Positions 3,414 through 46,212 of a stretch of 64,000 bases of DNA are shown piece by piece. Location: positions 372,001-436,000 of the forward strand of contig NGZR01000006.1 in assembly GCA_002197995.1 (NCBI GenBank), written 5' to 3'. A program made the translations under genes and the position numbers. The stretch comes from Gaeumannomyces sp. JS-464 (lineage: Eukaryota > Ascomycota > Sordariomycetes > Magnaporthales > Magnaporthaceae). Below the pieces are notes generated by a model. It ran no database searches. It was given only the letters and a program-made list of their open reading frames with translations, and had not been told where the DNA came from. Within the stretch, counting starts at the first letter, position 1, and every line of letters begins with the position of its first letter.

Positions 3414-4274
3414 TTAAAGCACGGCGTTCGGGGCGAAGCCCCGGGCGCCGGGCCCTATTGCCATGCGTTTGTTGTATCCGGTTGGCTGCTGGCATACGTA
3501 AAAGCGGCGTTGGTGTATTGGGGGCTTTGGCCCTAAGGTTGTTGGCCGGCGGTACCGTCGGTTTCCTCCAGGGTTTCCGGTTATTTCGATAGCCCTTTCG
3601 GGCTCGGGGAGGTCCAGTTCCATATCCGCCAGTACTTCGTATTGGTTGTTAAAACTAACCCTAAGCCTTTTGGCAGGGTGCCTTTTTGCCGGCCGTACGG
3701 GCCGCGCCCTCGGGGCCAGCGGATTTGCCGGGCTTACCTCGGCAGCGTCGGCGGTGGCAGCAGCGGCAGGAACGGCGGCGGCGGCGGGGGTAACGGAAGC
3801 AGCGGCGTTACCGGTACCGGCCGCGGGATTGGCATTAGCGGTAACGGTTACAACGGAATTGTCCGTAGTAACCGCGGTTGCAGGAAGGGCGTTGGCGGTG
3901 GCGGCCGCGGCGGCCGCGGCGGTGGCGGCGGCAGCGGCGGCTTCCACCTCTTTTACCGCCGCCCGGTAGGCTTGTGCCCCTAATTTCCTAACCGCGCCTT
4001 TTTCCCCACGGGTTAAATGCTTTAGCACTCCGTTTACCCGTACAGGCTTTATAGGGCAGTTCGGGTGGTCGGCTGGGTACGGGCCCGAACAGTTTGCGCA
4101 TTGCGGAAGGGCCGTGCACGGCGATGCGTGCCGGCCGTCGTTTACTTTCCCGCACCGGAGGCACCTATCGGCCCGGGCACAGTTGCGAGCCACGTGAAAG
4201 CCGTGGCAGCCGGGGGTATGTTGCGTAACCGGCGGGTGTCGTTGTACGCGGCGTGAAAAAACGTAATCCCCCAA
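3414..4274 (-). CDS. LINE ORF1, C-terminal part with zinc knuckles and alanine-rich tail
   Basis: An open frame of 286 residues. Near residues 20-75 it has closely spaced cysteine/histidine clusters (CHGFHVARNCARADRCLRCG, then CANCSGPYPADHPNC), the pattern of the tandem CCHC-like knuckles that close ORF1 of Tad-family LINEs. They are followed by an alanine/threonine/valine low-complexity tract (about residues 110-190) and a basic segment. The first methionine lies within the knuckle-bearing domain, so this is the continuation of the preceding frame after a shift, not a separate gene. The alanine tract is GCN-repetitive DNA and gives long false open frames on the opposite strand. Confidence 0.75.
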   Translation of the reverse strand: MGDYVFSRRVQRHPPVTQHTPGCHGFHVARNCARADRCLRCGKVNDGRHASPCTALPQCANCSGPYPADHPNCPIKPVRVNGVLKHLTRGEKGAVRKLGAQAYRAAVKEVEAAAAAATAAAAAAATANALPATAVTTDNSVVTVTANANPAAGTGNAAASVTPAAAAVPAAAATADAAEVSPANPLAPRARPVRPAKRHPAKRLRVSFNNQYEVLADMELDLPEPERAIEITGNPGGNRRYRRPTTLGPKPPIHQRRFYVCQQPTGYNKRMAIGPGARGFAPNAVL

Positions 4275-4354
4275 AGCCTAAACCCGGTTACGCGCGTGTA
4301 AAAGGATATAATCCATGATATACGCCCTTGGTAATTAGCGCCGGCCCCGGAGGC

Positions 4355-5392
4355 TTAACGCTTACTGGCTTTAGCCCTGTTTGGGCTTCGACTTCCTCCC
4401 GGACCAGCTTTTCCGATACCGGGACGCTTTGTCCGAGGCCGTTCGTTAAGGACGTGGGGGCATCCGGAAATCACGTAGTTAAACCAGATTTCGGGCTTTT
4501 CGATCCTTTCGGCGTTATATAAACGGCCTAATTCGGATCGATGCTGCAAAAGCCGGCTTTGGATATCCGCCGTTTTTGCTTTTAGCACGAACCCAGTAGG
4601 GGTTCGATAAGCTTCCGGGACGTCGGCTGTCGTAAACGGCAGGTCCCTGCTATCGGCAAGGGCTTTGCGAATACTAAAGCCCGTTTGTTGGTTGGCCCAA
4701 GCCTGTTTTTCCTCCGGGATTTTAACAAAAACCCGGAAATCGGCTTTGGGCCGGGCGGGAGGGCGGGGCTCCCGGGGTGCACGGTTTTTTAAAGCCTGTG
4801 CGGGTTGCTGGGGCTGCTGGAGCCCTGTTCGGGCCGCCGCCGCGTAAGTGGTCGGGGGCGGGCGTTGCGGGTTAGGCGCGTAAGGTTCCGGGGCCCCGTA
4901 GGGGTTTCTTTCCCTTTGGGCCGGCGTTGGCAGGCCGAAAAGGGCTTGTTTGGCGTATTCGATAAAACAATCCTTCCAGCCGTTGGCTTCGGGGATTGCC
5001 TCCAGTGGGAGGGAAGCGATGCCGGCGTCGATAAAGCGGGCGAGGGTTGTGCAAATTAAAGCCGTTTGCTGTTGCTTGCGGCTGTAACTCGCAACAATTT
5101 CCTCCGCGGCCGCCGCAGCCGACCCGAGGGGTGGGCGCGTAGGCCGGGGGTGGGAAGGGAGGGGAAAAGAAAGGAAAGGGGCACCTGTGCCGGTGCTGCC
5201 GTCGTGGGTGCCTTCCTGGCCCTGAACGGGCCCTGTTGGGTGTTGCGAATTCCGCAACGGGGACGGCGTGGTCGGGTGCGCTGACGCGCGGGGGGGCCCG
5301 GGTGGCAGCGACGCGTTCCTCCGGGCCGTTGGGCCGACGAGGAGGGCGCGCGCCACCCTATTGGCCGAAGGGGGGGCTGTTGGCAACGGCAT
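4355..5392 (-). CDS. LINE ORF1, N-terminal part (gag-like RNA-binding protein)
   Basis: An open frame of 345 residues, rich in proline, alanine and arginine in its first 180 residues, followed by a more structured segment with the run WFNYVISGCPHVL near its C-terminal third. In Tad-type LINEs this position holds an RRM-like nucleic-acid-binding region that precedes CCHC knuckles. The frame ends about 80 bases before the next open frame (4274-3414), which carries the knuckles, so ORF1 appears split by a frameshift. The first methionine at 5392 is the longest possible start and is not confirmed. The product would coat LINE RNA in a ribonucleoprotein particle. Assignment rests on position and on the downstream knuckles rather than on a diagnostic motif in this part. 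Confidence 0.65.
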   Translation of the reverse strand: MPLPTAPPSANRVARALLVGPTARRNASLPPGPPRASAHPTTPSPLRNSQHPTGPVQGQEGTHDGSTGTGAPFLSFPLPSHPRPTRPPLGSAAAAAEEIVASYSRKQQQTALICTTLARFIDAGIASLPLEAIPEANGWKDCFIEYAKQALFGLPTPAQRERNPYGAPEPYAPNPQRPPPTTYAAAARTGLQQPQQPAQALKNRAPREPRPPARPKADFRVFVKIPEEKQAWANQQTGFSIRKALADSRDLPFTTADVPEAYRTPTGFVLKAKTADIQSRLLQHRSELGRLYNAERIEKPEIWFNYVISGCPHVLNERPRTKRPGIGKAGPGGSRSPNRAKASKR

Positions 5393-31633: not shown

Positions 31634-33204
31634 TTACTGGTAGACGTAGCAGAAGGGCCCCTGGGTGGTGTCCATGACCTCGCGGACTGTGGTCTTGCCG
31701 CCGACGTACGTAATGTTCAGGACATCATCGAGGGTGGCCAGGCGGCTCGGAGGGTGTTCTGCCAGGTGACGTGGGAGTACATGTCCACGCCGAGGTCGGT
31801 GCGGCGCGTCGACTCGTCCAGCTCCTGCCTGTGAGGAGGGAAAAGAGGAAGGATGTTAATGATCTACCATAAAAACGAGGAAGGAAAAGACAGGGAAAAA
31901 AGGGAAAGAAAAAAAAAACTTGCCACAAAGCCCACATCCTGTCGACCATGGCGTGGTGGGTGAAAAAGGCTGGGTCATTGGGCGAGTTGAAGACGTCGTC
32001 GCCGGGTCGGTGGTGATAGTGTAGTGGCCCGCGGCGGGGGCCGATCTCGATGGACCCCTTGGGCCCCTCAGACAGAAGCCGGTACTTGTCCACGTTGGGC
32101 TGATTCATGAGGTCCAGCAGGGTCGTGTAGTTTGCGTAGCGCAGGTTGATGCCGGGGCCGACGTCGCGCACCCACGGCCTCGTGTTCATCCCCAAACCCC
32201 CGTCGGGCCCGACCTTGGCGGGCGGGTCGGGCTGTACGGGACCCAGCATGATGGTGCGGTGGTTCCGAAGGGGCCAGTCGTGACGGGCCCACCTCCCAGG
32301 CCCGTGGGGATGCGCAGGAGACCGCCTCCGGGGCCCTTGGCGACAATGGGGCCCTCGCGGCCCGGGATGTAGGCGCCGTTGCCGCCGAGGCTCCACTGGT
32401 CGCCGTTGAACATGGGCGAGTTCTGGGGCGCCTCGGCGTACTTTGCCCAGTCCCAGTAGGGCTGGTAGCCCTTGTAGCCGCACTCGTCGCGCAGCGCCGT
32501 CTCATACGCGTGAAGGAACCAGCGGTGCCAGGCCATGAAGTTGCCCGTGAAGTGGATCTGGAGGGTCTTTGTAAGGTGTTCTACGACAAAGTCGTCGAAC
32601 TGTAAAAGCGGGAGAGAGAGAGGGGGCCTGGGCGTTAGAATCATCATGTTGTTGTAAAAACAGGGGGATGGACGCATTTGTGTGTTTTTTTTTTTTAGGG
32701 GGGGGGAGGGTTGATGGGGAACAGAGATGGTGGAAAAAAACTTACGCGAGACCTCGCTCCCGGAGCAAAAGTACGGGATACCTTGCCCGGCTTGTCCATA
32801 AGGCACTTGATCGCCCGAATATACTCGGACCTCTCCTCCTTGGTAAGATCACCGCTATACCAAACGAAAAGCAAAACATATTAGCCAAACGGAAAAAGTT
32901 TCCCGGTCTTGGGGGGGGGGGCAAACGACCGGGGGCTTCATGTATCTGCCACCGTGGTTGACTTACTACTCCTTCCGGACGACAACGTTCTCAGCGGTGC
33001 ATTTGCCGCTCCCGCCCCGGGCCTTTAGTTTGGCCAACTGATTCTTCTGAATCGAGGCGATGAGACTGGTCACCGCGTCCTTGTCGGCCGCGAGGTTCCA
33101 GCTGGGCGCGGGGACGGATGGGGCCGCCCGGGCGGCTGGACGGCCGCGACGGCCGACGCCAGGAAGGTGGCGGCGGCGACGACGGTGGCGGGTGAGAGCT
33201 TCAT
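31634..33204 (-). pseudogene. Secreted tyrosinase (di-copper oxidase) gene with four exons and several one-base frame breaks
   Basis: The start MKLSPATVVAAATFLASAVA is a signal peptide. Predicted exons: 33,204-32,967, 32,854-32,746, 32,599-31,920 and 31,828-31,634. Introns 1 and 2 begin GTAAGT and end TAG or CAG; intron 3 ends CACAG. Copper site A is given by EHLTKTLQIHFTGNFMAWHR, with its three histidines. Copper site B is given by LHYHHRPGDDV and SPNDPAFFTHHAMVDRMWAL. The C-terminal exon has ELDESTRRTDLGVDMYSHVT and ends QGPFCYVYQ. The encoded enzyme would oxidise phenols to quinones outside the cell. The frame shifts by one base near 33,140, 32,262, 31,920 and 31,770, while the sequence on both sides stays family-like. 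It is either a young pseudogene or carries assembly indels. Confidence 0.85.
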
Positions 33205-34227: not shown

Positions 34228-34340
34228 CAGGCCACCCACCCTTTTTGCTCCCGCACCCGCCCGACCCACTTTTAGCCCGTGCAACGCCTGTGGATTCCGG
34301 TTTCGCAGCCCACGTAATTTTGCCCAGGTATTAGTTGCGG
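34228..34340 (+). repeat. Fragment of the SSDDE-family element
   Basis: Matches, with moderate divergence, the reverse complement of 25,780-25,870: CCCTTTTTGC, CCCACTTTTAGCCCGTGCA and TTCCGGTTTCGCAGCCCACG. Only this end of the element is present. Confidence 0.7.
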
Positions 34341-34346
34341 GGTTTG

Positions 34347-34600
34347 CTTAAAAGTTGAAGCGGTCTGCTTTTGTGGGTCCTGCGGAACCACTAAAATTGA
34401 AGCGGTCAGTGACCGCTTTAACTTTGCCAATTAAAATCAACCCGATTAGCCTAGGCGTTCCATATGCTGCGGGTACTGACCGCTTTAGCGTTGCTAATCG
34501 AAAAGTTAACGCAATTAGCTTAACGGTAACTAACCGCTGTAACGTTGCCGTTCGAAAAAGGTAAACCAATTAGCTTAAGCGTTTTATATGCTGCGGTTAG
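34347..34600. repeat. Degenerate tandem repeat with GACCGCTTTA units
   Basis: It begins with CTTAAAAGTTGAAGCGGT, the same word that forms the ends of the 80-bp palindrome at 42,689. Three units follow from about 34,409, each starting (G/A)ACCGCT(T/G)TA and containing CCATATGCTGCGG or TTAGCTTAA blocks (roughly 68, 54 and 69 bp). Confidence 0.6.
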
Positions 34601-37600
34601 GCAATAGCCAATAGGAAAAATCTTTTAATACCTAAGCAAAAGGTAATTGTTTAATATAAAAATGCTTTTACTAGTGATATATTTTAAGCGTTGCATACGA
34701 GTTCTATACGCGATGCTTCCCTAAAATGCCGGCGGGCTTTTGGGGGCTTTCAGTAATTTTTTTCATTATATGGAAAACGATACCGACAATAATAGCGATA
34801 CGGACGCAAGCGCATATTATACGAAACGCGCAAGCGATGCGAGAAATTAAAATGAAGGATTGAAAGCATTTTTATAAGCCATAGCCGGCGCTAACTAAGT
34901 AAATAATATTCGCTTAAGCTTTATATAAGCGCCGTTTATACGGCGGGTATGCTAATAGTATTTCCAAATTACTGGTTCGAGATTTTGGCTTACGTATTAC
35001 CAAAAATTAACATTTTATTACGGTTTTCGAAATTTAACATTATTAAACCTTACCGTATTACCCAAATACTACACTAATTGGAATTTTGCATATTTTACTA
35101 ACCCTGTTCGAAAAGTCGATGTTGCAAGTTGAAAAGGGTCGGTATAAAAAGGAAATGAACAAGTTGCAAAAAAAAGGTACGTATTGCATATGCATCGCTT
35201 TAGGTACGTTTAGGCTAATATAGTTAAATAATGCTTAATTACAGGTTTAATTTTGCATTAAAATTAAACGAAGCGCTTACCGCGGAAAGGCAGTTAAATT
35301 TAGATTATTAAGGTAAGCATACCATATGCGTAATTTAAACGCCGCGTATAAAACAATTACTAATATTAATATAAAACTAATCCAAAAATTAACAAAGCAT
35401 ACCATTAGGTTTAGGAATGCATTAGTATATAAAAATGTTTAAATTTAATACCACGTATGCAAAGCGTAAACGTAGCGCAAAATAGGGTTAGTTTAAATGC
35501 ATTACAATAAGCTATTTAATACGATTTTCCTTTGCCTCCGGCTACGTTTAACGAAACCATTCGTTGCAATACCGAAAAGTAAATATAACTTACTATTAGC
35601 TTATGCGACGCATATGCGTTAGTAACGGAAAATTAATATATTATTTATTAGTTAGTTTTACGCATTTTTACGAAATTAAAATCTTTACCCTTTTAAGCCT
35701 TATTTAGCACCGGATAATAGCCGAAAATGCATAGGTTATAAACTTATATTAATAAAATAAAATGGCGTAAATACTCCATATGCAACGTTTAAACGTGCTT
35801 TACTTTACACCTACTTTACATTTACTTTACATTTACCCGATATATATATTAATTGATTCAGTTTTAGCGCATTATTTGCCTTAATGCTTCGCTTGCGGAA
35901 ACTTGGCATTTAGCCTAAATTATTATCCTTACGAAGCTTATTTTAAATATCCCATATTTGCAATATTTTTGCAATAATAAAAACTAATAAGCTCGGTATA
36001 ATTGTACTTTTATTAGCACAATTACTTAAAAGCGAAAAACTTGTGGTAAGTTTTACCTAATGCTTATTCGTCGCATCCGCGTCGTTTAAACGCAGCATAT
36101 GCGATATTTACAAATTATATAAAATTCGACCATGTAAATAGCTAATAGCTACTAATTAAACGCGATTGCAATGTTACTTTTTACATATACTTTTTTGTTA
36201 ATTATTAACGTTAGCCATTTGCGTTTTTTTTAGCCCAAAAGTCGCATACGCATTATCCACCCTTTTTTTAACGCACGTTTAACGATTTATTACGCGATAT
36301 GCAAACCGCGATTAAATAAAGTGATTTACTAATATTAACCTCGAATAAGTTATTTATATACGCCATTTAAACGCCGTTTACACGACGGATATTAACTGCG
36401 TATAAAACGGTTTTTTATATCGCTAATATTTTACCAATTACGTGCAAAATACGGATAAAACGCAACATTGCAATCGATTTTCCATTATTTAAATTATGCT
36501 AGTCGAATATTTGCGTTAATTCGAGCTATTAGGTTATTGCAATATCCAAAAGGTATAAGCTTCGCAAATAATGCCTATTTTTTGCAAACGCGTTTTTTAG
36601 GCCTACCGTATATAACTTATTTGTTAATATAATTTAGGGGTTTAGCAAAAATGGCATTTGCAAAAATATAGGGATATCAGCCAGCGATTTATTTACGATT
36701 TTTACGAAATCGATAATAACCAATTCGCTATTATATGCATTGCTTAAGCAATGCTTATGCGAATATAATAATAACCACATTTGGTAATAAATTTATCTTT
36801 TAAAATGGTTTAAAGAAAATTAATTTTTTTTTAAAGGATGGGAATTTCTTAAAAAGCGTAAATTGCATTGCTTATAAAACGTTTAAACAACGCTTACCTT
36901 TTAGTTTAAATAAGCTAATACAATTATAATTTTTAAAGCGAGGTTATAGCCCGTCGAATTACGTATATATACGCTTTCGTAAATATTACCAGGCTTTAAT
37001 ATTAGCATTTACTTTTTAATCGTATATTTGAAATAATTGCTAATATTACTAGTTAACCCGCTATTTAAAAGCATATTACAAATAACCGTAATATGGGTTA
37101 GCAAACAATAACGGCGAATATAAACGTGATTTTAGCTAAAGGTAAAATACTACTTTTATATATATTATATCCATTGCTAACGCATTGCCTACGCATCGCT
37201 TAAAATTCGGCTTTTATTTACGCGGGTTTAACCCTTTTAAAAAATGGGATAAGCATTTATAGCATTGTTATATACTTTGCTAAATGCACGTAAAACGTAA
37301 TTTCCAAAAGCGCTTCCCTCGGTACGATGCGAATACAGCATTGAAATTGCTATTTGCATTTCAAACTGCCAGCGAATATAATGCGCATATGCGTCGCCTA
37401 CGCGACGCTTACCTTAAGCTTAACCTATAGTTTTGCCAAAAGCAAGCTAAATGGATTCGATCCGGTTTTGTTAATGTTTGCTTAAATATCCCGGCATTAA
37501 TACGTAATGCAGCCTTTAAAAATACCAATATTGCCGAATTTAGGCATTATTCGGATAATAATTTTATTAGGCGGAAGTTATCGTTATTAGCTGCAATACT

Positions 37601-37859
37601 AAAGTAAATGTTTTATATGCTATGCTTAAGCGTAATATAACTAACGCTAATATATTTACAAGCTGGAAAAACACACTTTTTAATAAATCGAATCGGATAA
37701 AATAACATTTAACACGGGCATTTCGCAATTTTAGGTTAATACTTTTAATTAAGCAAGGCTTACGCGAAGCATACGCAAAAAGGATGCACGTTATAAGAAC
37801 CACGTTTAACGTAAATTACGTGATAATTTAATTCCTTTTAACCCTATTAACCTTTACGA

Positions 37860-38292
37860 CAGTCTTAATATCGGGGGTGGATATGCGCCGTTTAAGCCGA
37901 CTTTAGGCGGCGCGTAAGCACTTTTTAACCCTCGCCGCGCATTATCCCTTTTATTTTTACGTCCTGCAAGCCCCGCACACTTTAGCAACCTTTTAATTCC
38001 CAGTAGCCCTATCCTTTTTAGCAGTTTTGCCAGGTTTTATATTGCTAGTAGCCCTATTATTGCAATACGAAATCGACGGAGGAAACGGCAACACACGGTA
38101 GCTCGTTTAAAAAGGCGAATAATGCAGCCTAAGCGGAGCGTAAGCAACGCGTGGATAATAGGAAAGCGGTGTTAAAAAAAATGGAATGTTAAATTGAAAT
38201 GCTTCGGGTTGAAAAGGAGCTAAGTGAAAAAAAACGTGCGTTAAAAGCCAAGGAAAATAAAATGCGAAAGCAATTACGGAACGGGTAGTACA
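37860..38292 (+). pseudogene. Plus-strand coiled-coil coding remnant, possibly transposase C-terminus
   Basis: From 38,079 the plus strand reads EETATHGSSFKKANNAA, a stop, AERKQRVDNRKAVLKKMEC, a stop, then IEMLRVEKELSEKKRALKAK and ENKMRKQLRNG. Stops are TAA codons at probable glutamine positions. The charged heptad-like sequence resembles the coiled-coil tail of pogo/DDE-type fungal transposases, but no catalytic motif was found. It is followed by a probable intron (38,293-38,335) carrying the palindromic motif, in plus orientation. Confidence 0.45.
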
Positions 38293-38735
38293 TAAGTAAC
38301 GCTTAAGCTATGCCTAAGCAAATATGGGATAGTAACAAATTGCATTTAGGCATTTTCTTTTTGCTGTTGCTCGTTTTTAAAGCTAAGGTTAATTTTTTTA
38401 AAAAAAAAAAGCTAAATGCTTTGCTTAAGCATTGCCCGGGGAATTTTTGGACCTCGCTTACGCTATACGAGGTAAGTGGTATAATTTATAAAGAAATGTT
38501 GCATTAGCCCCATTTTAGCGTTACAATTAAGCTTTAGCCGAAAATGTTAAACAATGCTAGCGTTATGCATAAGCAACATTCGAGCAAAGCGTTTTAGTTT
38601 TTTTTTTTTTAAATTAACTTTAGCTTTAAAAACGAGCAACAGTAAAAAGAAAATGCTTAAATGCAATTTGTTACTATTACATATTTGCTTAAGCATAGCT
38701 TAAACGTTACTTATGTACCACCCAATTCCTTTTAT
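38290..38735. repeat. Inverted duplication with about 145-bp arms
   Basis: 38,290-38,430 (GTACATAAGTAACGCTTAAG through TTTTTGCTGTTGCTCG) is repeated as reverse complement at 38,590-38,735 with a few transitions. The spacer is about 160 bp. Each arm contains one copy of the intron motif and part of the neighbouring exon. Confidence 0.8.
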
Positions 38736-38749
38736 TAGTAATTAGCATT

Positions 38750-41450
38750 AATAAATTTTTACCAAAGCAAAGCGTTAAAAAAACTGGCTTTATAACGGCG
38801 TGGCTTAAGCTACGTTTAAAAGTAACGTACGCTACTCCTATTTACCTAAACCGGCGAAACCTTAAAAAATAGGCTATATGGAAATGCCTAAGCGACGTTT
38901 AAAGGATTATCCCGTCCTAAAAAAACAATGTAACATTAAACGCTTGGTATTTAAACCGATGCATAAGCGATGCTTAAATAAAAAAAATTCCACGCTAAAT
39001 AACCAAATCGAATTAACGGGGATAAAATAAAGCAGCGCTTAAACGTCGCCTAAATAACGTTAGCTTTTTTAGCTTTATTACTATTTTTAACCGTTTTAGC
39101 AAATTTAGCCTTTTTCCGATTTATATCGCATATAATTAACCTAAACGCCGTTTACGCGAAATCAAAATGTATTTACTGCGACCAAAACGACGCTACGAGG
39201 CTTTAAAAAAGCCATAACCACGAGCTAAAATATTGTTAGCCTAAGCCGTGCCTATGGAAAATGTATAAACTTATTTGCAAGCTTACGTTTGGCTTTATCC
39301 TTGCTAAAAGGGCCAGCTGCTATATATTTATATTAGCATATGCATTGCTTAAACGCCGCATATAGAACCTACCTGAAAAGCTGCTTGCGGCGTCGCCGCT
39401 AGCCGGCTTTTTAACAAAAGCAGCTCCTTACGGTTAGCCTAAGCCACGCATAAGCAGGTGCAAGGTAAATTTTACTTTTGGCCTTTTTAAAAGGCGTTTC
39501 CTCTTTAAAAGCGGGCGGGCTCGACTAATAATAGTTAGCATATGCATCGCTTAAGCCACGGCAAATGTTTTTACTTTTGCGCTTTTTAGCGTAAAATGGG
39601 CCGCGTTTTTATTAAATGGCTAACGGGTTAGCATAAGCGTTACGTAAGTGACAAATAATAAAAATATATATATAATTTTTAATTTGGCCACTTGTTTTAA
39701 AAAAGCTCGCCTTTTAGCATTAACTTTACCCGAGGACCGCTTAGGCTGATCCTAAGCAACGGTGGTACCGGGTTCCGGTATTTAGCCATTTTGGCTATTA
39801 TTAACACGCTTTTCGCTTACGCTTTGCGTACGCGATGTTTAGGTTGGAAATGAACAAAATGGCTTAGCGGAATGTTATATTAGCAGATCGGAAACGGAGG
39901 TAAGGGCTAAGGATAAGGCAGGCAATGCTTATGCGAAATAAACGCTATGCGTGCTTTTATCGGGATCGGGTTCGCCGGTTGTAATCTTGTCGGGTTAAAA
40001 GTTCAATTCGATAAAAGTATTAATAATAAGGGTAAAAAGGGGTCGGGTAATAAGTAGGCGACGAACAACTGTTTTTATAAACTGTTTGCTATTTAAGTAA
40101 TGCATAAGCAACGCATAAAAGCCACTTACCTACCGGTAAAACTTAATGCCGAACTTTTTAGCGAATTTAGCATTCTTTTTAGCGATTCCTTTTATAAGCG
40201 GTAGCCGTTTTATTAATGGCTAAAGTGGCATTGCATATGGTTAGTTTAAGCTAAGCTTATAATATGAAATGGAAACTTATATAAGCTTAATAGCGAATTT
40301 GGCTTTGCGCTAATAACCTTTTAGCATAAACTTTTTAATAGCATTGCGTATGGTTAGCCTAAGCGATATTTATGCTTACATATAAAAAAAACTTACGCGT
40401 TAGCAAGCTCGATTTCGCGCATTTCGCGATTGGCTAAACCTTTGCCCTTAATTAAAAATGGTTAGCTATAACCTAAGCGAAGCATATGCATTAGGAGCAA
40501 CTAATAGCAACCCGGGTAATTTTGTTTATAATAGCGATTAAATTAAAAAATATTAATATATTAATGTTTAGCTTAAGCGATATATAAGCGTTAAGTATTT
40601 ATATTTATGTTAACGCGGGACAAAAATCCGTATTTTGCTATCCTCGTTAATAACGACCATGCAGCTGCATATTATTAACCTAAGCAATGCATAAAAAAAA
40701 GCTGGAAAATTTACACCCAAATGTTGCACTTTAACAAAGCTTTAAAGGTTTTAAAAGAATTTATTATAATTACATTATTAGTTTAAGCGACGTGTAAAGA
40801 AATCGTGGGCGGCTTACTAATATTATCCTTTTTTAAAATAACCTTTTTGCTTTTATCCTTTTAAACTATATATTAACTTAAACGTCGTATAAAAAAACGG
40901 GCAAAACGTACGTTAAAACTTATATTCCTCGTTAAAATTATCGACAGGTTTTAAAATAGGTTAGCATATGCCATGCCTAGGCGACGCGTATATATTTTAC
41001 CGATAAAAACGCTATATTTAGCACTTTCGAATTGCGCCGATTGCACCAACTTGCATATAAGGTTTTCGACCTTTTGCTTATCGTTAGCCTAAACGTCGCG
41101 TATGCAATGGGTATAATATAACTTACCATATTAGCGTCCTTATCCTACTACTCGTTGCCGGGGGCTATGTTAACTATAATTTGTTAGCAATATATATCCG
41201 TCGCCTAGGCATACCTTAGGCATACGTCATTATAACCAAAACGGAAGGTGCTAGTAGCTGGGGCAAATGCAACGCGTTGGGGCAAGCGCAGCTACAAGTC
41301 AGCCTAGGCAATCGATTTGCAGTACTACTGCTAAAATTAATCGCCTAAACACGCGCGGAAGGTTAAATTAATAAAATGTATATAAATCGATAGGGAATTA
41401 AACGTTTATTCGAAAGCGTAAATATCGATTAATTTAAGGTTAGTTTAAAC
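38750..41450 (-). pseudogene. Unidentified multi-intron gene, RIP-damaged
   Basis: Exons of about 30-80 nt between the repeated introns keep a continuous frame. From 39,610 down to 39,240 four introns separate exons that read, without any stop, AAHFTLKSAK, SSPPAFKEETPFKKAK, AAFVKKPASGDAASSFS, AGPFSKDKAKRKLAN and LVVMAFLKPRSVVL. Around 41,160-40,800 splicing gives IAPGNE, two TAG codons (CAG-derived), DKDANM, then QKVENLICKLVQSAQFESAK and PVDNFNEEYKF. Near 40,700-40,640 it gives AWSLLTRIAKYGFLSR. Only CAA-, CAG- or CGA-derived stops interrupt it. I recognise no family; a transposon-encoded protein is likely because the region was hit by RIP. Exact 5' and 3' ends are unknown. Confidence 0.6.
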
Positions 41451-41489
41451 GATACGCGGGCGACGGATATACGTACCGGTTGTTGTTAT

Positions 41490-41870
41490 AAGTAAGTAAG
41501 TAAGTATATTTAACGTCGGCAAAGTCGGGAACTACCAGTCCCTGCCTCCCAAAAGGCATACGACGTGTTAGCGCTACCTAAGCTTAACACTAAGCTACAT
41601 GTTGCTATCGAGGCGGCTAACAAATCAAACCATAAGGCAAGCAAAAGCCTACCTAAGGCACACGGAGTTCAGGCCGCATTCCGGCGCTTTTTGTTAGTAA
41701 GCGGGCAATCGGCAAAAGGGCGAATAAACGCCGGGGCGCTGTAAGCGCTGCAGTTAGTGGTAGTAAAAGCAATCGGCCGGCAAAATGCCGGAAAAGTGTA
41801 AGGCCGGGTGTAAGCGGGGGGTACCGTTATGGTCCACCCTTAAACCCGGCCAAAGAAAAAAATCGGGGGT
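41490..41870 (-). mobile_element. 5'-truncated LINE 3' end, same family as the edge copies
   Basis: It begins with AGTAAGTAAGTAAGTA (the 3' tail in reverse) and TATTTAACG, and follows the 3' UTR of the copy at 63,250 onwards through CCAGTCCCTGCCTCCCAA, GTTAGCGCTACCTAAGC and GTTAGTAAGCGGGCAATCGG to about 41,870. No coding part remains. It has moderate RIP-type change. Confidence 0.85.
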
Positions 41871-42660
41871 TAAAAAGCCTATTCCCAGCCCAAAGTGCTC
41901 CTTATGTGTTTATCGCGTATTAACGATACGCTGCGCGGTTTACCAATCGTAGGACGATCGAAACCGTGCACGATACGGGTAACAAATAAAACCGCTTAAA
42001 ATTTTAAAAATTTTACGCGTGCGTGCTTATGCAACAGGCCAAACTTGCGCCGTGCGTGTCGTGGGTGCGGTCGACCGAGGAGGAGTCGCGTGGGTGGTAG
42101 GGACGAGGAGTCCTGAAAATGGCGGGGGACGGCGGCGGCCGGGCCGGCTATTTGTCCAATGTGTTTTAACTGCTTGCCGGCCTGCAGTTTTTTTGTACGT
42201 TTAAGTCGTTCGGCTTATAGGTTCGCGAAGCGAGGGCGATAAAAGTTAAAGGGCGGTTTGGTAATGCGCGGAGGTTATAGCAACAAGCTGTTAAAAAATG
42301 GCGCGCGCGAGGCGTGCGCTTTAAGCTGCGGGTGTAAAACCTTCCCAAACTGGCAATAGGCACCTTGAAACTATTGCCAGCATTTTTTGCACTTTTAACC
42401 TAGTTGCGTTACCGTCGTCGTTATTAAAAGGAAACGGAAAACGCGGTTTAAAACAAGGCCAAATAGCTTGTTAAAACCTGTTATAATGCCCAGCTTATTT
42501 TGGTAGCCCGTAATACCAAAATGGCCGGGCTTTTTTAACGGCCATTAACAGTAAGTCCGGTGGGAAGAATTTTTCGGGGGGCCCGGTTATTATTATGGTT
42601 GTTAAAAGGAACGAAAAAAATCACGTTAAAAATTGCAATTAAAAGGTTTGTTTAGGCGAC
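41871..42660. other. Spacer, no gene recognised
   Basis: Mixed composition. A GC-rich island at about 42,010-42,180 contains short frames without motifs; the remainder is AT-rich. A minus-strand 65-codon frame at 42,363-42,166 resembles nothing. Confidence 0.45.
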
Positions 42661-42688
42661 GCCCGAGTGAAAAGTGGGGCGGGTGGGG

Positions 42689-42768
42689 CTTAAAAGTTAA
42701 AGCGGTCGGCTTAACTAATTACCTAATTGGGCCGGACTTATAAAAAGCAAACCGCTTTAACTTTTAAG
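42689..42768. repeat. 80-bp palindromic element
   Basis: CTTAAAAGTTAAAGCGGT at the left is mirrored exactly by ACCGCTTTAACTTTTAAG at the right, with a 44-bp AT-rich centre. The same end word occurs at 34,347. It could be a minimal MITE or the terminal hairpin of the SSDDE-family repeat that follows it. Confidence 0.75.
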
Positions 42769-42774
42769 CAAACC

Positions 42775-42985
42775 CCCGCAATTATATGCTTAATTTTGCT
42801 TGCAAATTAAACTTGGTGCCATTTTTAATCCATTTTTTAACAACCGCCATTATAAACGGCACGATTACGATTTCGAGCGACGACGAGGCTGGGTGTTACG
42901 ACCGCGCCCTTTAAAGGAGTGCGGGGTGGCCAAAATGGAAAGAGGGGCTAAAAGAGCCTTTTCGACACCCAGTTACGTGACGGTC
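42775..42985 (+). repeat. SSDDE-family element fragment
   Basis: Corresponds to the reverse complement of 25,660-25,790: AAACTTGGTGCCATTTTTAA, CATTTTTTAACAACCGCC, then CACGATTACGATTTCGAGCG and ACGACGAGGCTGGG, which encodes ITISSDDEAG on the plus strand. A 66-codon frame overlaps it in another phase. It continues into unique GC-rich sequence. Confidence 0.65.
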
Positions 42986-43700: not shown

Positions 43701-44133
43701 TTAAAATCCCGTTGTAAAGCTTTCGGCGGTACGTTACAATTTAATTATTTCGAAACTAATTTAAAAACTGGCCGTTATTACTATAAGCCGGTTTTTCACG
43801 CATAATTTTTCCGAATAGTTTAAGTTAATTTTAAAACTATTAGTCGTTTTTTAAAAACGCGAGCGAAGTATACGCTTTGCTAACGTTAAATACCCGAATC
43901 GTTTAATTAAAACCTATTTCCCGTTTTTATCATTTTATAAAATGAGTTTAGCTTAACGGCTCGCGGCCGGTTTTATTATCGGTGTTTAAAAAGCGTTCTT
44001 CTTCGCTTTCGCTTAGTAAAACCTCGTACCCCCCTTTTAAGCGCGAGTTACTCCTTTTAACGTTTGCTTTTTTAATTTCGAATGCGGTCCGGGCGACATT
44101 ATTTTCTTTTTTTTTAAGCTTTTGTAAATCCGC
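43701..44133 (-). pseudogene. Unidentified coding remnant flanking Gypsy 3
   Basis: A minus-strand frame reads ADLQKLKKKENNVARTAFEI, KKANVKRSNSRLKGGYEVLL and SESEEERFLNTDNK, from about 44,130 to 43,948. It looks coding (mixed charged residues, no stops in AT-rich DNA) but belongs to no family I recognise. The Gypsy 3 LTR interrupts it at 44,134. The rest of the interval down to 43,701 is AT-rich and without open frames. Confidence 0.35.
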
Positions 44134-44579
44134 TGTTACGACCAGCATATAGGCCCCAGGGCAGCAGGATAGGAAGGGCCCCAAATGACGCTTTTACCCC
44201 GCTTTAAATACGTGGGATTACGTAACCCTATGCAGGATTTGTGGATTTATAAGCAAAGCGACAAATTTAAAAGGGATTTGTGGATTTGTAAACAAAGCGA
44301 TAAATTTAAAAAGGGATTTGTGGATTTGTAAATAAAGCGACAAATTTAAAGATTATTAAAGCAAAAATGGCGTGTATATAAAAGATGGATTTCCTTTTAT
44401 TTTAGGTAATTTTAACTAAAGCTTCGGCATTAGTTAAACTAAGTTAGCTTTTAAGCATCCCCTAAGGCAAGCAATTAAGTTATCTTTTTAAGTTACGTGT
44501 TTCCTGTTTTTAAACCAGCGATATTATCCTTTCCACCTTCGAAGTGCCTTACTTTAAAAGCAAACCGCTAATTGTAACA
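44134..44579 (+). repeat. 5' LTR of Gypsy 3
   Basis: Starts TGTTACGACCAGCATATAGG and ends CTAATTGTAACA. At about 44,232-44,350 it has three tandem units of roughly 38 bp (GGGATTTGTGGATTTGTAAA, then CAAAGCGACAAATTTAAA), each an imperfect palindrome. TATATAAAAG at about 44,376 is a probable promoter TATA box. Confidence 0.9.
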
Positions 44580-44603
44580 TTTTAACTAATCCTATTTAGT
44601 ACT

Positions 44604-45640
44604 TTGTTAAAGGAAAAAGATAATATAGCTATAATAAGCAGCAGCAAAAAGCTTAAAAAGGAAAAAACCACGGTTTTTACCTTTAACGGTATTAAGTACG
44701 ATTTTAACGAAGCTGTTAATACGGCCAGCCATTTTAAGCTTATAACGAACGAAATCGCCAAAAGGCAAACCGAGGTAAAGCAATTTATTACAAAGCTGTT
44801 ATCCTTCGAAGCGTTTATCGCGGTTAACGCGTATAAGTTCCCATTTATAAACTTTATAAAAGGAAAAACGGCAAATTTAAAACGTTTTTTACCGAATGCA
44901 AAAATTACTTTAAGTTTTACAAATAGCAATTCGTAAAAATAAAAAGTCGCTTACGTTATTACCAAGTTAAGCGATAAAGTGAAAAAAATGGTTTTAACTA
45001 ACTTACAGCGATTATTTTAAAAAAAATACGAAGATAGTTAGGAAATTATTAGGATTATTTTCGCTAAATTCGAAATTTTTGGAAAAAAGGTCGGAAAAAT
45101 GTTCGGGATAATCGACGAAATTCGAATCGCCGAAAAAAATTTATTAGTTTTTAAATTACGAAAAGCCGTAAACAAATACGTAGCGAACTTTTAACGAATT
45201 ATTATTAAGCTTAACTAAAGTAACGCTACGTTAATATTGCATTTTTATAACGGATTACGCGAAAACGTAAAGGATAAATTCGCAAAGCAAAATTGCTTAA
45301 AGTTTTTACGAATTACGTTAAAAACGCGGTTCGTATTAACTACAAATTATACGAACGATAATAAAAAGAAAAGATATAATTCCAAAAATGTGGCATAAAA
45401 TAATAAAGCTAATTAAAAAAAGGCCAAATAATAACCTATTACAGCTTATAAAACGCATTTAAACTTTATAAATTTTAACGCGAAAGCTGTTTATTAGCAA
45501 TAAAGGTAGCAAAAAAAGCAAAAGTAAAACCCGAAAAACGGGAAGTGTTTTAAATGCGGCTAAACCGGCTATATTAAAATTAATTGCTTTTAACGGGATA
45601 ATAACCGCTAGGTATCCAACTTTTAACAAGCGTAAAAAGG
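44604..45640 (+). pseudogene. gag remnant of Gypsy 3
   Basis: 44,604-44,936 is open for 110 codons (for example FNGIKYDFNEAVNTASHFKL and RQTEVKQFITKLLSFEAFIA), a helical gag-like segment with few stops. After decay in the middle, about 45,545-45,590 encodes CFKCG, a stop, TGYIKINCF, a CCHC knuckle with histidine mutated to tyrosine. Protease would follow, but the nested element intervenes at 46,213. Confidence 0.75.
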
Positions 45641-46212
45641 CTTAGCATAAAATAGGTTATGCTTTAGGTTAACGTTTAGCTAAACGAGCTGTTATAACAA
45701 GCTATGCATTACATATTAGTTTAATAAAAAGGCTACCGGATAATACTTTTAAAAACCGCGAAATATCGCTATGTTTAAAACTATTAAAGTTAAGTACGAT
45801 AGTAAAGGAAAATAGCGAGCAGTTTTTGGATTTACAAGTTTAAAAAAAAACGGCGACATTTACCGCTGGGTTTAAAAAAGGGCAATTTTAGCAAATGATT
45901 CGAAAAAAGGAAAAACTTAAAAAAAAGCTTTTAAATTAAACACACCTTTTTTAAAAAACGAAAGATTTTAACGATAATGCGGAAGTAAATTAAAATGGTC
46001 GGAATTTTAAAACGATTAAATTTTAAAAACGAGTAAAAAGCTTAAACGGCGCGGCTTTTGCATTTATAATTCGCGAAAACCAGGAAAGCTGGAAAAATTA
46101 ACGCGTTTTTACGCCATTTAACGTGTCGAAGTGTTTATAAAACGTTAAAGTTCCAAAATACCCCGATAAACCGTTATATTACGCCACCCTAGCGGACGAA
46201 AACGACGGTTAA

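Follow-up and report, generated by a model that had tools for sequence, protein, structure and literature searches.

The window analysed here is a stretch of 64,000 nt from the ascomycete Gaeumannomyces sp. JS-464, placed on contig C31 of a genome of 53.0 Mb in 34 contigs. It contains a single decayed copy of a DNA transposon with terminal inverted repeats (TIRs), most of whose body is occupied by an array of the 8-nt DNA palindrome GCNTANGC, the repeat unit of the locus, mostly paired or in short arrays at 11-nt spacing (single copies are called half-sites and pairs double sites below). Part of the element is a predicted minus-strand gene with a row of introns of about 50 nt, many of which carry the same motif. 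A first-pass annotation of the locus had read these introns as introner-like elements, copied from one to the next; here it is proposed that the palindromes are probably binding sites of a protein encoded by the element, carried through its gene inside the introns.

The host transposon and its relatives

The element and its parts are as follows, in window positions.

34334..42782, no strand: TIR DNA transposon, single decayed copy of 8,449 bp (about 7,357 bp once the nested repeat is subtracted), with TA flanks at 34332-34333 and 42783-42784
34334..34372, plus strand: left TIR, from the ends shared with a second element and the match between the arms
42743..42782, minus strand: right TIR, from the same two signs
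34449..41221, no strand: motif clusters, GCNTANGC-NNN-GCNTANGC at up to two mismatches; 32 clusters over the whole element, 15 in 39.0-41.5 kb and 17 leftward
38143..38793, plus strand: stretch with a partial, less decayed relative at C1:8345203-8345559; contains the inverted repeat 38283-38408 / 38598-38723
39056..41476, minus strand: predicted decayed multi-intron gene, with exons of about 33-86 nt and no recognisable protein domain
41489..42580, no strand: multicopy repeat of 1.1 kb that lies nested within the element and has zero motif sites at up to two mismatches

The TIR arms in the window (34339-34372 and 42743-42776) are 34 nt long and 94% complementary, and after the TA the element begins with GTTGCGGGG on the left and with ATTGCGGGG read from the right. 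The same TIRs enclose a second element of 538 bp at C1:15196549-15197090, where they are 45 nt long (TA included) and 93% complementary; a search with this miniature element matched the window at 34,325-34,383 and 42,717-42,790. With up to three mismatches, the TIR pattern has exactly four matches in the genome, which are the ends of the two elements, and its reversed control has none. TA stands outside all four ends, as read by eye, although this concerns two bases in two elements with no empty site seen. The four TIR ends show that the motif locus is the body of one TIR transposon, and the locus belongs to a single decayed DNA transposon of autonomous size, with TIRs of about 40-45 nt and a putative TA target-site duplication. 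The gene is thus borne by a transposon, as the first-pass annotation had supposed. DNA transposons with a TA duplication include the Tc1/mariner-pogo group. A second short repeat, approximately AAGTTRAAGCGGTC, was seen by eye in both orientations at 34334-34500 and 42690-42782 and is a candidate for the true end-binding site of the transposase.

The interior of the miniature element is dense in the motif, with nine double sites (up to two mismatches) in 452 bp against about 0.02-0.05 expected and with arrays of up to four units. Among the 30 BLAST matches listed between it and the window element, six are TIR matches and the other 24 are each 16-44 nt long, 21 of these overlapping the motif arrays of the miniature element. 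An exact double-site scan of the genome gave 17 places, of which ten are in the window element, three at about 15.197 Mb and two at about 8.345 Mb of C1, one on C12 and one on C32; the reversed control gave 11, so isolated matches elsewhere mean little. Three other places matching the pattern (L010, L011 and L012) were treated as chance, as no clustering like that in the relatives was seen, though L011 holds three adjacent units (C12:8260081 was left out). At the DNA level, the 39.0-41.4 kb part matches only itself in the genome. In viral contigs, a scan with the TIR had zero matches, and one with the triple motif matched seven contigs with no sign of kinship, as judged by composition and half-site positions in all seven, three of them viewed in part. 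A cluster of half-sites of the TTAGGC/GCCTAGGC type is found in a GC-rich IMG/VR contig (L044:61-560), with no TIR or other kinship by eye.

The partial relative at C1:8345203-8345559 allows the decay of the window copy to be described. In two aligned pieces, 41 of 52 differences are G-to-A or C-to-T towards the window (24/32 and 17/20), with G-to-A dominant in one piece (20 vs 4) and C-to-T in the other (11 vs 6). Of the 15 C-to-T changes, 2 affect a C before G, and the base preceding the 26 G-to-A changes is A in 12, G in seven, T in seven and C in none. These changes agree with the decay by repeat-induced point mutation (RIP) noted earlier for the locus; judged from sequence, the decay appears RIP-like with a loose context, its polarity being presumed. 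The inverted repeat in the stretch matched by this relative (38283-38408 / 38598-38723) has arms of 126 nt, 90% complementary, with 189 nt between them, and the relative has a shorter version of it. The repeat nested at 41489-42580 has at least 12 further long copies in the genome, at about 80-86% identity, among 40 of 1,485 candidates that were scored.

The palindrome array and the introns of the predicted gene

Exact half-sites number 46 in 34,900-41,450, against 3.7 expected and a maximum of 11 among 100 simulations, which bears out the earlier count of more than 40 in 6.5 kb. In five other blocks of the window they are at about the chance level (5 vs 4.3, 4 vs 4.8, 1 vs 2.9, 3 vs 3.0 and 0 vs 1.7 expected). 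Double sites at 11-nt spacing, with up to two mismatches, number 43 in 34,331-41,488 (7,158 bp) against 0.2 expected (20 simulations), and the same search in two other AT-rich blocks gave three (0.7 expected) and none. The literal 10-mer TTAGGCTAAC by itself is not enriched (13 vs 8.5 expected, one mismatch). The motif extends from about 115 bp inside the left end of the element up to 41.2 kb. Ten exact half-site pairs in the window are spaced at 11 nt, and within 60 nt just one has another distance (33). The variable parts of the motif are the spacer and positions 3 and 6 of the half-site, and these two positions are complementary in 23 of 48 half-sites (13.8 expected, p 0.002), so that half-sites tend to be palindromic. 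Pairing between the two halves, as an RNA hairpin needs, is near chance (8 of 30 free positions), and the folding of eight introns is unremarkable against shuffles (z -0.77 to +1.15). The palindromic half-sites, the lack of hairpin pairing or unusual folding and the motif-dense miniature element together point to a site acting in DNA.

In 39.0-41.5 kb, 14 half-sites on the minus strand run straight into a branch-like site. The junction test behind this count took half-sites matching at least four of six fixed bases, with the last GC opening a branch-like site, and sought a donor upstream. A GTANR donor lies 33-39 nt upstream in 10 of the 14, against 6.2% of positions (p 7e-10, in a range picked after seeing the data), and within 30-50 nt in 11 of the 14, against 17.7% of positions (p 1e-6). 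Elsewhere in the element, GTA at 33-39 nt was found in 0/2 cases on the opposite strand of the gene part and in 0/8 and 1/6 in the left part. When all offsets within 30 nt are considered, the branch site on the minus strand of the gene part peaks at offset 0 (11 vs 0.7), with an 11-nt echo (8), so the register is not merely an artefact of how the junction was defined. The minus strand of the left part has a weak excess in the same register (3 vs 0.4, exact half-sites) and the plus strands have no peak. Donor, branch and acceptor thus stand in canonical geometry, and a row of minus-strand introns of about 50 nt, arranged as GT..motif..branch..AG, is well supported by splice signals in 39.0-41.5 kb. 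The introns and candidates are listed below.

41174..41225, minus strand: candidate intron GTATGC..GCTAAC..TATAG, 52 nt, with motif and branch outside the common register; a longer variant was also parsed
41077..41126, minus strand: intron GTAAGT..GGCTAACGATAAG, 50 nt, with motif
40951..41000, minus strand: candidate intron with motif, acceptor AA instead of AG
40866..40911, minus strand: intron GTACGT..GTTAATATATAG, 46 nt, decayed motif
40764..40817, minus strand: candidate intron with motif, acceptor AA
40665..40714, minus strand: intron GTAAAT..GGTTAATAATATGCAG, 50 nt, decayed motif
40331..40396, minus strand: intron GTAAGT..GGCTAAC..AAAAAG, 66 nt, with motif
39620..39652, minus strand: weak 33-nt candidate for an intron, GTCACT..GCTAACCCGTTAG, which carries the motif but lacks a good donor
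39525..39574, minus strand: intron, 50 nt, exact double motif
39427..39475, minus strand: intron, 49 nt, exact double motif
39320..39372, minus strand: intron of 53 nt carrying the motif; a form extended by 3 nt was also found
39225..39286, minus strand: intron of 62 nt carrying the motif, its donor 46 nt upstream of the branch
39121..39176, minus strand: candidate intron, decayed motif, acceptor AA
35177..35223, plus strand: intron candidate GTACGT..GGCTAATATAG, 47 nt, with motif
37604..37662, plus strand: 59-nt intron candidate that contains a motif cluster

The earlier description of short motif-bearing introns on the minus strand therefore stands as regards splice signals, although the 12 introns used for comparison measure 46-66 nt and not 46-53, three of them end in AA instead of AG, and not all motif copies are intronic. 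RIP-like mutation would explain the AA acceptors. Nine of the 15 clusters in 39.0-41.5 kb lie within listed introns, one of these introns being the weak candidate, and in the left part 2 of 17 lie within an intron candidate; the left part is more AT-rich, so any introns in it may no longer be recognisable. An intron score derived from the general fungal consensus picked out seven plus-strand and eight minus-strand candidates in 34.5-41.45 kb, a density of 1.0-1.15 per kb where the other AT-rich blocks have 0.06-0.26, and all eight minus-strand candidates have an exact half-site. Parsing by dynamic programming gave the minus strand a score of 23.7 and the plus strand one of 10.5; with 24 control parses scoring 5.6-20.1, this is suggestive only.

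Proposed binding sites and alternative explanations

Under the proposal made here, the palindromes would be bound by an element-encoded transposase or accessory DNA-binding protein, the 11-nt spacing corresponding to about one helical turn. By keeping such sites in introns, the element would be able to have them within its gene without harm to the encoded protein; the last GC of a half-site may double as the opening bases of the branch site GCTAAC, and RIP-type mutation would later have damaged the element, removing some splice acceptors too. A more far-reaching version, which we consider doubtful, is that the transposon threads its own protein-binding array through its coding gene, with sets of sites each enclosed in a minimal intron: one 8-nt palindrome would both contact the protein and open the branch site, so that the insertion or expansion of the array in an exon would create an intron.

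Several observations weigh against the binding-site proposal. None of the frames gave a recognisable transposase or DNA-binding domain and the search for homologues found none, so the binding protein is itself presumed. Six-frame Pfam scans with X at stops gave nothing at E up to 1, within a sensitivity limited by the decay and the introns, and a protein search with the hand-spliced chain found 2,513 word-sharing candidates, none of them at E up to 10. Pfam on the spliced chain and two other pieces gave two matches below the cut-off (a coiled-coil and a tape-measure domain), both to one 53-residue piece, and Rfam had no match in 34300-42800. A decayed or non-autonomous copy need not retain a transposase gene. 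The spliced frames are not open above chance either: two six-exon blocks keep four stops and one stop in the best frame, a result equalled in 44% and 16% of trials when stretches of equal lengths are excised at random, and in 72% and 39% when the introns are shifted, so the first-pass claim that removing the introns leaves open frames did not hold up beyond chance. The neighbouring frame is equally open (5 stops in 196 codons vs 5 in 190). High-scoring intron candidates are almost as many on the plus strand as on the minus strand (seven vs eight), though with an exact half-site in only two of the seven, so candidate density alone is not strand-specific. Six of the 15 clusters of the gene part sit in no listed intron, the rightmost 200 bp of the element have zero double sites even at up to three mismatches, and binding sites through the body of an element instead of near its ends are unusual. 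Three of the 24 non-terminal matches listed to the miniature element fall outside its motif arrays, and with two elements and one fragment to compare, the shared motif could reflect ancestry without function.

The introner-like alternative, that of a mobile intron multiplied inside the transposon gene with motif and branch site carried together, is a rather unlikely one. In its favour are the branch-site register on the coding strand, strong in the gene part and weak on the same strand of the left part, the near-uniform layout with 10 of 14 donors at 33-39 nt ahead of the branch, and the 5' parts of the introns, which are weakly alike (p 0.01); the fixed register in the gene leaves room for local multiplication inside the element. 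The 3' parts are not significantly alike (p 0.08), and what the introns clearly share is the 23-nt motif-plus-branch only, whereas introners, in the part of PMC12403724 that describes them, are introns alike over their complete width. Likeness across the complete intron width was not found, and neither, at up to one mismatch, were copies in many genes; judged from sequence by the description in PMC12403724, the introns here are not introners. Searched for in 53 Mb at up to one mismatch, motif plus branch occurs at 13 places, ten in the window element and three in its two relatives, and this confinement gives no sign of a genome-wide spread of introns. All four exact matches are in the window element, and the mismatch falls in the branch part in two of its ten matches and in all three of the relatives. 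Neither relative has a motif-branch junction at offset 0 or 11 on either strand, even though the miniature element is filled with the motif, and the RNA structure of the introns is not unusual. At two mismatches there are 57 matches against 21 in the control, with 17 in the window element, three in the relatives and 37 elsewhere, 16 of the last being two unrelated repeats recognised by eye (nine and seven copies). The first of these is the 23-mer GGTTAATCGACGCGTATGCTAAC (one copy ending AAT), in nine genomic places such as C1:13811800, C23:3167680, C29:4324684, C31:1137645 and C32:1532257, and the second is approximately GCATTCGCAAAGCYTTTGCTAAT, in seven places; both families look unrelated to the motif. 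The first-pass annotation was therefore right that the introns share sequence, though this is clear over just 23 nt and confined to the element and its relatives, one of them a motif-filled miniature; within the sensitivity of the pattern search, motif-plus-branch was not seen in introns across the genome, the outcome under which that annotation had said its introner reading would fail. Tandem exon-intron duplication was set aside as a source, the best exon pair scoring 15 against 14.7 by chance, although similarity among the 12 exons is slightly above that in resampled sets (mean local score 8.1 vs 7.1, 0/200 as high).

It is also unlikely that the array is a functionless minisatellite-like 11-nt repeat, spread in one element by slippage and local copying and tolerated by introns and not by exons. 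The near-exclusive 11-nt distance between exact half-sites (ten pairs against one at 33 nt), the runs of as many as four units inside the miniature element and the variation of the spacer and of positions 3 and 6 would suit such a repeat, but slippage alone does not predict that palindromic half-sites are maintained (p 0.002). The motif has also persisted in two elements that have little else in common in their interiors, and in the gene part of the window element it stands in a fixed register with the branch site. A splicing aid at the RNA level, with a motif hairpin just before the branch site that brings donor and branch together, is highly improbable. The motif does lie directly upstream of the branch site, and two facing half-sites could pair over a 3-nt loop; the free positions of the halves have no pairing preference, though, the eight introns fold no better than shuffles and the motif is plentiful where no intron exists, and the hairpin was rejected on the half-pairing and folding results.

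If the binding-site proposal holds, a dense row of introns can be traced to a specific DNA feature of a transposon and not to spreading introns, and the case cautions that introns within a gene may have sequence in common without having been copied; if the array is in fact threaded through the gene, intron birth would be driven by the cis-sites of a transposon, inside the transposon itself. The TIR and the motif offer a handle for finding intact members of a possibly undescribed transposon family in related fungi. TIR transposons themselves are known; what appears new here is that a motif array fills most of such an element, introns included, and no description of such an element was found in the open-licence literature, judged mostly by title and the start of the abstract.

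Elsewhere in the window, a separate multicopy repeat family lies to the right of the transposon at about 44130-46000, mostly 76-81% identical to many genomic copies. Open frames are found on the minus strand at 31725-32806, which we take by eye to resemble a tyrosinase, and at 3414-5392, presumably a retrotransposon gag with a zinc knuckle from its appearance.

Comparison with known systems

As in fungal introner-like elements (PMC4457414, PMC9860276), short introns with a common sequence are found here in a fungus; they differ in being confined to one transposon and its relatives, in clearly sharing 23 nt and in having the motif outside introns as well. The symmetrical stwintrons and cropped sister introns of Hypoxylaceae (PMC8469720, PMC12403724) are likewise fungal introns with a short palindrome, and have proliferated there. 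Their palindrome is WTTCTAGAAA, and the introns, of for example 93 and 207 nt, have long inverted repeats and many gene positions; here the palindrome is GCNTANGC (WTTCTAGAAA itself was not searched for), in introns of about 50 nt within one element.

In its TIRs and its putative TA duplication, the element resembles fungal DNA transposons such as PHISTA in rusts (PMC12730594); no transposase was recognised here, and the likeness concerns the ends. In the soybean CACTA/EnSpm element Tgmt*, TIRs are found with many short repeats in both orientations, described as cis-determinants of transposition, a protein of the element being proposed as their binder, and the Tgmt* gene has 21 predicted exons, the maize En/Spm being compared in the same paper (PMC2613891). 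The ends of the present element are not CACTA, its putative duplication is TA instead of 3 bp, which does not place it among CACTA/EnSpm elements, and its motif fills most of the element and the introns instead of lying near the ends. Like the CACTA/EnSpm elements as described there, it combines TIRs, many short motifs and a many-exon gene, which here is a predicted one.

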